From: Tessaracoccus rhinocerotis
GTDB taxonomy: Bacteria; Actinomycetota; Actinomycetes; Propionibacteriales; Propionibacteriaceae
NCBI RefSeq assembly: GCF_007197885.1
Contig: NZ_VKKG01000001.1
Span: 186,001-250,000 of the forward strand
Reading direction: 5' to 3'
DNA: 64,000 bases
Below, in pieces: positions 19,489-22,972 of this stretch. The first letter of the stretch is position 1. Every line of letters starts with the position of its first letter. The translations under genes and the position numbers were made by a program. The notes below the pieces were generated by a model, which ran no database searches, was not told where the DNA came from, and worked only from the letters and a program-made list of their open reading frames with translations.

Positions 19489-20253
19489 GTGGCAGACTCC
19501 TACCGGCTCCCGCCCCCTCACCCGAGCGGCGCGACCGCCCCGAAGATCCCGGCGAAGGCGCTGCCAAGGCACGTCGCGATCGTGATGGACGGCAACGGGC
19601 GCTGGGCCAAGCAGCGGGGCATGAAGCGCACGGAGGGCCACGCCCGGGGTGAGGGAGCCCTGCTGGATGTGATCCACGGAGCGCTGGAGATGGGCATCCC
19701 GTACCTCTCCGCGTACGCCTTCTCCACGGAGAACTGGAAGCGCTCCCCCGACGAGGTCCGCTGGCTGATGGGCTTCAACCGCGACGTCATCCACCGCCGC
19801 CGCGACGAGCTCGACGCCATGGGTGTTCGGATCCGCTGGGCCGGCCGTCGTCCCCGCCTGTGGGGCTCCGTCATCAAGGAGCTCGAGTCCGCCGAGGAAC
19901 AGAGCAAGGACAACACCAAGCTGACCCTGCAGTTCTGCGTGAACTACGGGGGGCGGGCGGAGATCGTCGACGCCGCACGGGAGATCGCCCGGCAGGCCGC
20001 CGCCGGCAACCTGGACCCCGAGCGACTGACCGAGGCCCGGTTCGCCAAGTTCCTCGACGAGCCCGAGATCCCCGACGTCGACCTGTTCCTGCGCAGCTCC
20101 GGTGAGCAGCGCACCTCCAACTTCCTGCTGTGGCAGTCCGCCTACGCAGAGTTCATCTTCCTCGATCGGCTGTGGCCCGACTTCGACCGTCGTGACCTCT
20201 GGGCGGCCGTCGAGCAGTACAGCTCCCGCGAGCGCCGGTTCGGCAGCGCCTGA
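19489..20253 (+). CDS. uppS: Isoprenyl transferase (cis-polyprenyl diphosphate synthase)
   Basis: A 254-residue enzyme elongating isoprenyl diphosphates in cis to make the lipid carrier for cell-wall synthesis. The catalytic aspartate is D34 in [16 protein letters not shown], and the C-terminal substrate-binding motif [18 protein letters not shown] is complete. The GTG at 19489 starts the only sensible N terminus. It is divergent from recO across 49 bases, a typical actinobacterial pairing. The chain length of the product is not predictable. Confidence 0.95.
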
Positions 20254-20306: not shown

Positions 20307-20336
20307 TTGACGCCCCTCGTCGGGGCGGAGTAGTGT
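20307..20336 (+). promoter_or_regulatory. Strong sigma-70 promoter with inverted repeat in the spacer
   Basis: TTGACG (20307-20312) and TAGTGT (20331-20336) are 18 bases apart. The spacer carries the inverted repeat CGCCCC-TCGTC-GGGGCG, a possible operator. It would begin a transcript about 55 bases before the 41-residue peptide gene. Confidence 0.65.
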
Positions 20337-20397
20337 CAACCCCCGATCGACCTGACCGGGACGGTCGCGCACCGCGAGACGAGAGGAGGGGATCCTG

Positions 20398-20523
20398 ATG
20401 GACATCACCCAGGCTCCCACCACCAAGGCCACCGCGTCCGGCCCCGTCCGCAATGCCGCCACCGTCTCCACCATTTGCATCTCGGTCCTCGGCGTCCGCA
20501 CCTCCGGTACGTACCAGGCGTAA
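20398..20523 (+). CDS. 41-residue peptide, possible stalling leader peptide
   Basis: A short gene behind a very strong ribosome binding site (GAGGAGGGG, ending 6 bases before the ATG) and the good promoter at 20307. The product starts MDITQAPTTKATASG and ends STICISVLGVRTSGTYQA; the second half is hydrophobic, with Ile, Cys, Val and Leu clustered, and Tyr, Gln and Ala at the end. There is no recognisable signal peptide or known RiPP recognition pattern. A hairpin follows the stop codon by 15 bases, and a 94-residue protein gene follows 206 bases downstream. The layout suggests a regulatory leader peptide whose translation or stalling controls the downstream gene; a functional small protein is the alternative. 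I do not recognise the sequence. Confidence 0.6.
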   Translation: MDITQAPTTKATASGPVRNAATVSTICISVLGVRTSGTYQA

Positions 20524-20538
20524 GGCCGCGCCACCGCC

Positions 20539-20556
20539 GCGTCTCTGAGGAGACGC
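20539..20556 (+). promoter_or_regulatory. Hairpin after the 41-residue peptide gene
   Basis: GCGTCTC and GAGACGC form a perfect 7-bp stem with a TGAG loop. The left arm can alternatively pair with GAGACG at 20376-20381, directly in front of the peptide's ribosome binding site, so two exclusive structures are possible. No U-run follows, arguing against a simple intrinsic terminator. Confidence 0.5.
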
Positions 20557-20729
20557 ACCACTCCATGTGAACAGATGGGCTTCGTTGCCCGTCGTCTCCC
20601 ACCCCCTGCATGCCCCGAGGGCGACCCGGAGCGATCCTGCGTCCGTCCGTCGAGCATGCGCGTCATCTCCCCACGTCTTCCGGTGACGACTGGCGTCCCC
20701 GGCAACCAACACCAACCGAAGGAAACATC

Positions 20730-21014
20730 GTGAACACGATGCACGTGCCCGAAACCGCCCACCCTCCTGAACAGCTCGTGACCGCAGCCGCGCTCACCGA
20801 GTTGCCCTCGATCCCTGGTGCCACGCTGACTGATCGCATCTCGATGCGCATCGGCCTGTGGCTGCTGCTGCGCGGGGCCCGCAACGCAGCCCGGGACGAG
20901 CAGGACCGACGAGAAAACGAGCTCGAGCGCATCTCTGATGCGGCCCGGGCCGAACACACCGACGGGGTCGCCCGCGCCTGGCTCCAGGGCGCCCAGTCCC
21001 CCGAGCCGCGATGA
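20730..21014 (+). CDS. Unknown small protein, 94 aa
   Basis: A 94-residue protein starting at a GTG eight bases after GAAGGAAA. The middle contains an amphipathic or weakly hydrophobic helix (RISMRIGLWLLLRGARNAAR, about residues 37-56), followed by a highly charged helix (DEQDRRENELERISDAARAE). It has no cysteine, so it is not a WhiB protein. The LWLLLR patch may associate with the membrane. It is the only clear gene downstream of the promoter and leader peptide, ending 11 bases before a strong hairpin. The function is unknown. Confidence 0.65.
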   Translation: MNTMHVPETAHPPEQLVTAAALTELPSIPGATLTDRISMRIGLWLLLRGARNAARDEQDRRENELERISDAARAEHTDGVARAWLQGAQSPEPR

Positions 21015-21025
21015 GCACCGGAATC

Positions 21026-21057
21026 GTGTCGGGGAGTGCAGCAGCACTCCCCGACAC
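21026..21057. terminator. Strong hairpin, probable terminator of the 94-aa gene
   Basis: GTGTCGGGGAGTGC pairs perfectly with GCACTCCCCGACAC over an AGCA loop (14 bp). It follows the 94-residue gene stop by 11 bases. No U-run is visible; it lies between convergent genes and may also serve leuA. Confidence 0.7.

Positions 21058-21220: not shown

Positions 21221-22972
<1,752 letters not shown>

Follow-up and report, generated by a model that had tools for sequence, protein, structure and literature searches.

The window analyzed here is a 64,000-nucleotide stretch of Tessaracoccus rhinocerotis DNA, and the unit under study occupies the slot between uppS (19489-20253, + strand) and leuA (21221-22960, − strand). 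As listed in Table 1, a promoter is followed by a short upstream ORF (uORF), a spacer, the gene for a small protein of 94 amino acids, and a hairpin. An earlier note on this DNA had described a promoter, a strong ribosome site, a 41-codon ORF, a 7-bp hairpin, a GAGACG sequence, a 94-codon ORF, and a 14-bp hairpin, and all of these were found where it had placed them; GAGACG lies at 20376-20381, just before the uORF ribosome site. The promoter had also been called consensus-like. A strict consensus scan of the window (at least 9/12) reported no promoter, TTGACG-N18-TAGTGT included, and the match to the consensus is only moderate, but the spacing was found again upstream of the units in relatives as TTGAC-N18-TAnnnT. 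The hairpin at the end of the unit is a probable terminator without a T-run.

Table 1. Features of the unit in the window
Feature	Position	Strand	Basis
Promoter TTGACG-N18-TAGTGT (TTGACG, 20307-20312; 18-nt spacer; TAGTGT, 20331-20336)	20307..20336	+	Sequence; same spacing in relatives
Very strong uORF ribosome binding site GAGAGGAGGGG (20381-20391)	20381..20397	+	Sequence; predicted to pair with codons 5-7
41-codon uORF, MDITQAPTTKATASGPVRNAATVSTICISVLGVRTSGTYQA	20398..20523	+	ORF; layout common to relatives
Codons 5-7 of the uORF (within CAGGCTCCC), with which the ribosome site is predicted to pair	20412..20418	+	Base-pair probabilities; folds
CCCCGTCC, second possible complement of GGAGGGG	20442..20449	+	Alignment, near the M. 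barkeri complement position; duplex −9.9 kcal/mol; not significant versus shuffled ORFs (p = 0.55)
C-over-G spacer, candidate Rho-binding region	20524..20715	+	C-G skew 0.21, top 1% of the window's control stretches
7-bp hairpin GCGTCTC-TGAG-GAGACGC, after the uORF	20539..20556	+	Fold; not conserved in relatives
Second hairpin GATGGGC-TTCGTT-GCCCGTC	20574..20593	+	Fold
94-aa small protein, GTG start	20730..21014	+	Family alignments; core L-x-D-R-[ILV]-[AS]-[ML]-R-I-G-L-x-L-L
14-bp hairpin between convergent genes, without a T-run	about 21026..21057	+	z −5.25 versus shuffles

The unit in the window is real, with a layout beyond chance; a short ORF with a Shine-Dalgarno match of at least 7 nt in such a position occurred in 0.4% of control stretches compared to 86% of Microbacterium leaders. 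We found no orthologous unit at the uppS-leuA locus in the relatives searched. In the nearest relative by uppS (93%; L044:526-1500), an unrelated ORF, apparently a metallophosphatase by reading of its sequence, lies between uppS and leuA. Since this relative carries an unrelated ORF where the window has the unit, the content of the slot varies.

The small protein and its neighbors

The earlier note had taken the downstream protein to be neither a known resistance nor a known biosynthesis protein, and no family model in Pfam, NCBIfam, or PHROG fits it. A Pfam search of 22 family members at E ≤ 1 gave no match, DUF1127 (PF06568) included, and within the genome itself DUF1127 reached only E 1.24, at an unrelated place. 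Within the scope of these searches, the 94-aa protein represents a family that has not been described before. A first search within the genus returned weak matches to residues 25-70, and the loci then read proved to encode complete small proteins, each preceded by TTGAC-N18-TAnnnT, a AGAAAGGAGAGGTCCC-type ribosome site, an ORF of 14 to 41 codons, and a gap. Profile searches detected the family in 174 of 198 Microbacterium species, nearly always as one copy, in 142 of 400 Microbacteriaceae genomes (41 of the 85 genera sampled), and sporadically in Tessaracoccus (9/39 genomes, one of these weakly). Among the carriers are Tessaracoccus oleiagri, T. caeni, Microbacterium barkeri, and Curtobacterium luteum.

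AlphaFold2 (52 rows) predicted one long helix spanning residues 33-88, mostly with a pLDDT of about 90 or more, preceded by a flexible N terminus; a structure search with this model gave no PDB match. A tree of 52 small proteins was poorly resolved and placed the window protein nearest to M. barkeri-like rows without strong support. This placement suggests that the unit may have been transferred between genera. At a locus from another propionibacterial genus (L106:900-1760), the end of the upstream sequence resembles that of another copy of the small protein, as if copies stood in tandem there.

In 66 of 70 Microbacterium loci, the gene after the small protein encodes a tandem GNAT acetyltransferase, which is related to S. 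clavuligerus ORF14 (PDB 2wpw) and to PF00583 and apparently shares the operon; of the remaining four loci, three are truncated. This succession of small protein and ORF14-like GNAT (L122:4226-5326, L130:4171-5298, and L126:4212-5297) was seen in T. caeni as well as in nearly all Microbacterium species, and an ATGA overlap occurs in 15 loci. Downstream of the small protein, no GNAT is present in the window or in nearly all of the non-Microbacterium loci examined. We considered a distant tandem GNAT (32%) elsewhere in the genome as the window's missing partner and rejected it; it lacks such a leader.

The upstream ORF and its leader in relatives

Nearly every copy examined was organized alike, with a promoter and a very strong ribosome site, then the short ORF, a C-rich gap, and finally the small protein, and this order was seen again in relatives within unrelated neighborhoods. 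All 66 Microbacterium loci with resolved starts, from a set of 70, have a uORF, and 20 of 25 further Microbacteriaceae loci, most of them outside Microbacterium, passed the uORF test; the Curtobacterium uORFs, with a GGGGG-type ribosome site, were recognized by eye. The layout was also found in eight Tessaracoccus copies, that of the window counted, and in two other Propionibacteriaceae. The window leader can be aligned with those of M. barkeri and a further relative (L140) from the promoter through GTGAACACG. Together, the leader and the small-protein gene have the layout of a uORF-type control unit, found in many actinobacteria, and the attenuation-like layout proposed in the earlier note was right in outline. 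Rfam 15 covariance models matched neither the window region nor the leaders at eight loci from relatives, and a literature search joining Microbacteriaceae with uORFs, with most subscription papers outside its coverage, found no paper.

In two groups of relatives, we compared the distance from the uORF start to an internal complement of the ribosome site. This distance took seven values in group 1 and four in group 2, in a single phase each time (26/26 and 17/17, respectively); length changes before the internal element thus kept the frame in 43/43 cases. In contrast, the lengths of the gap were evenly distributed over the three phases. Because the frame is kept through length changes, these comparisons of sequence show that the uORF is translated in the relatives, and the copy in the window is probably translated as well.

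The peptide itself appears to matter little. Its pN/pS was 0.93 in group 1 and 0.67 in group 2, with amino acids hardly more constrained than silent sites in the former and moderately so in the latter. The uORF peptides are hypervariable, unrelated between lineages, and of very different lengths; their recurring motif, S-F-G or S-V-T, is encoded by the very codons that are complementary to the ribosome site. The conservation of the uORF would accordingly be one of an RNA element. The window peptide begins with MDIT, as does that of M. barkeri (L124/L135), and a search for all 41 residues in 60 relatives gave matches at chance level only. In Curtobacterium (L129:3184-3340; L132:3476-3600), TGTxPF units are repeated within the uORFs (FTGTTPFTGTAPF), as though some internal element had been multiplied. 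Directly 3′ of the uORF stop, many Microbacterium leaders (L136-L162) carry GAGAACTCYGCCC.

The uORF and spacer of the window together have a C-G skew of 0.256, exceeded by 8e-5 of control stretches, and the median Microbacterium spacer is within the top 0.5% of local stretches for C over G. T-runs of at least 5 were seen in only 1 of 65 spacers. This composition fits Rho and not an intrinsic terminator; judged by base composition, termination may be Rho dependent. The small protein has a separate ribosome site, GAAGGAA before the GTG, in the window and in M. barkeri. A motif, GTGCTGCGGCAYG, often inside the hairpin GTCGTGCTGCGGCACGAC, was seen in 25 of 66 Microbacterium leaders (L136-L162) up to about 100 nt before the small protein.

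Pairing between the ribosome site and uORF codons

RNAalifold, applied to the two groups, paired the uORF ribosome site with uORF codons through sequences that differ between the groups yet match within each (GGTCCCC/GGGGACC and GGTTACCGA/TCGGTAACC). Other lineages have further versions of the site and its complement (for example, GGTCACCGA/TCGGTGACC and GGTCGCCA/TGGCGACC). In a swap test with one member from each of 15 site classes, own pairs reached −19.1 kcal/mol compared to −16.3 kcal/mol for swapped pairs (permutation p ≤ 5e-5). Such covariation shows that, in the relatives, part of the uORF RNA is a complement of the ribosome site of the same ORF. In most of them this element falls within the second half of the uORF, and in group 1 its distance to the end of the stop codon is always 46 nt (26/26).

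The earlier note had envisaged another switch, with GAGACG as the alternative partner of the left arm of the 7-bp hairpin. The match is present, but in M. barkeri and L140, the nearest relatives, conservation was seen for neither of the two arms. A different pairing, that of the ribosome site with uORF codons, is conserved and co-varies in relatives; measured against the note's own refuting condition, no conservation of the peptide or of the alternative pairing, the arrest and GAGACG version does not hold.

For the window copy, a hairpin between the ribosome site and codons 5-7 is predicted, with pairing probabilities of about 0.96-1.0 for GGGA and CC. The total folding energy of the window leader is ordinary, not below that of shuffles, and the complementarity between its ribosome site and uORF does not exceed that seen after codon shuffling of the ORF (p = 0.55). 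We also considered the ribosome site of the second gene as a competitor for the uORF complement and rejected it; promising to the eye in a few leaders of group 1, it failed in group 2.

A candidate translation-monitoring leader

The closest known system is the duf1127_1 leader of Sinorhizobium meliloti (Kothe et al. 2025; PMC12218461), an attenuator that monitors translation and apparently depends on Rho. Reporter assays in S. meliloti showed that uORF translation, C-rich uORF codons, and the ribosome-site hairpin control premature termination before the small gene, reading ribosome availability (PMC12218461). The actinobacterial unit resembles it in having a uORF with a strong site, a ribosome site that pairs with C-rich uORF codons (by covariation in relatives; in the window as a prediction, with complementarity not significant against shuffles), a C-over-G region after the uORF with no intrinsic terminator, and a small Arg-rich downstream protein, and in the RNA apparently mattering more than the peptide. 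It differs in that S. meliloti is an alphaproteobacterium with a DUF1127 downstream protein, which the actinobacterial family does not match, in that the S. meliloti element lies in codons 3-10 whereas that of the actinobacterial relatives is mostly in the second half of the uORF, and in that control was demonstrated there by reporters and is deduced here. DUF1127 proteins (PF06568) are likewise short and Arg-rich, and one of them is uORF controlled, but the new family of Actinomycetota has no sequence match to them and is predicted to form a single long helix, some 55 residues in length, whose first part is hydrophobic. An actinobacterial uORF leader is also found upstream of Corynebacterium ilvB; its reported target, unlike ours, is an amino-acid biosynthesis operon, ilvBNC (PMC10272879).

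Because the S. meliloti leader has the same parts, we infer the same principle here, and we lean modestly toward the view that the unit consists of a leader that monitors translation and the gene under its control. The RNA, not the peptide, probably lets the cell sense ribosome performance and turn on the small helical protein. The first ORF of the promoter's RNA, with its near-perfect ribosome site, would be translated whenever initiation is fast, and its C-rich codons would be complementary to that same site (in the window, through the predicted hairpin with codons 5-7). The C-over-G stretch of the uORF and gap is the likely zone of Rho loading and termination, a role assigned because of this composition and the absence of an intrinsic terminator. 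During normal growth, ribosomes would traverse the uORF and leave the C-rich RNA bare between rounds, and transcription would end short of the 94-aa gene. Once initiation or the first steps of elongation slow down, as with few free ribosomes, translation-blocking drugs, or uncharged tRNA, a stuck ribosome or the helix between ribosome site and codons may, by analogy with S. meliloti, mask the C-rich codons; termination would then be relieved and the small helical protein made. The uORF peptide would be mainly a by-product. Control might instead act on translation of the second gene rather than on transcription.

Ribosome-mediated attenuators of the erm, cat, and WhiB7 types read translation status through RNA folding. 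A drug-sensing unit of this type would use an antibiotic-stalled ribosome in the uORF to free alternative pairings, exposing the second gene's ribosome site or preventing termination, and would belong to a resistance operon with the tandem GNAT. The uORF in a long leader, the possible alternative pairings, and the ORF14- and PF00583-related acetyltransferase that comes next in the Microbacterium operons all fit this account. We nevertheless consider it unlikely, since the actinobacterial leaders contain no arrest motif or T-run terminator that we could find, the hypervariable peptides have no common stall motif under amino-acid selection, no conserved competitor for the uORF element was established across the groups, and the GNAT is missing beside the window copy and most copies in the other genera examined. 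Simple self-limitation of the uORF, whose internal complement would close its own ribosome site while the small protein is expressed independently from a weaker site of its own, accounts for the covariation of site and complement and for the separate GAAGGAA, but leaves the joint travel of uORF, C-rich gap, and small protein at unrelated loci unexplained, and we judge it decidedly improbable.

Less probable again is that the uORF peptide is a functional small protein or, as the earlier note had tentatively suggested from an Ile-Cys-Ile-Ser-Val-Leu segment, a nascent-chain arrest peptide. One Microbacterium lineage does keep AQATGLAAPFAPRLAHSVTAG (pN/pS 0.67), and ends of the AGFVGVLTA kind are common to other genera, but with a pN/pS of 0.93 in another lineage, peptides unrelated and of widely differing length across lineages, and shared motifs that coincide with the RNA complement, we give the peptide little credence. 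Chance or decay, with an unrelated short ORF before an orphan gene or a unit decayed after transfer, seems to us barely plausible. The nonsignificant pairing in the window (p = 0.55) and the relatives without a copy at this locus would agree with it; against it stand the alignment of the leader with its M. barkeri and L140 counterparts, which extends from the promoter to GTGAACACG, and the ORF, the strong ribosome site, and the C-over-G bias, all of them retained in the window.

Returning to the translation-monitoring leader, a broader and more tentative proposal, which we hold with some doubt, is that it represents an undescribed, family-wide translation-sensing RNA leader of Actinomycetota, namely a uORF with its own co-varying anti-Shine-Dalgarno element, placed in one large group at a constant distance from the stop codon, that controls a new small helical protein, together with an acetyltransferase in Microbacterium, and that arose independently of the S. 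meliloti case. Ribosome-availability gating has so far been reported in detail for one alphaproteobacterial gene. If our proposal is true, such gating of a small protein would be widespread in Actinomycetota too, with the leader occurring in the majority of Microbacterium species and in roughly half of the Microbacteriaceae genera sampled. The analysis names an unannotated, nearly universal single-copy gene of Microbacterium with a directly testable control element, and the uORF would offer a clean case in which the conservation of a short ORF stems from RNA pairing and not from its peptide.
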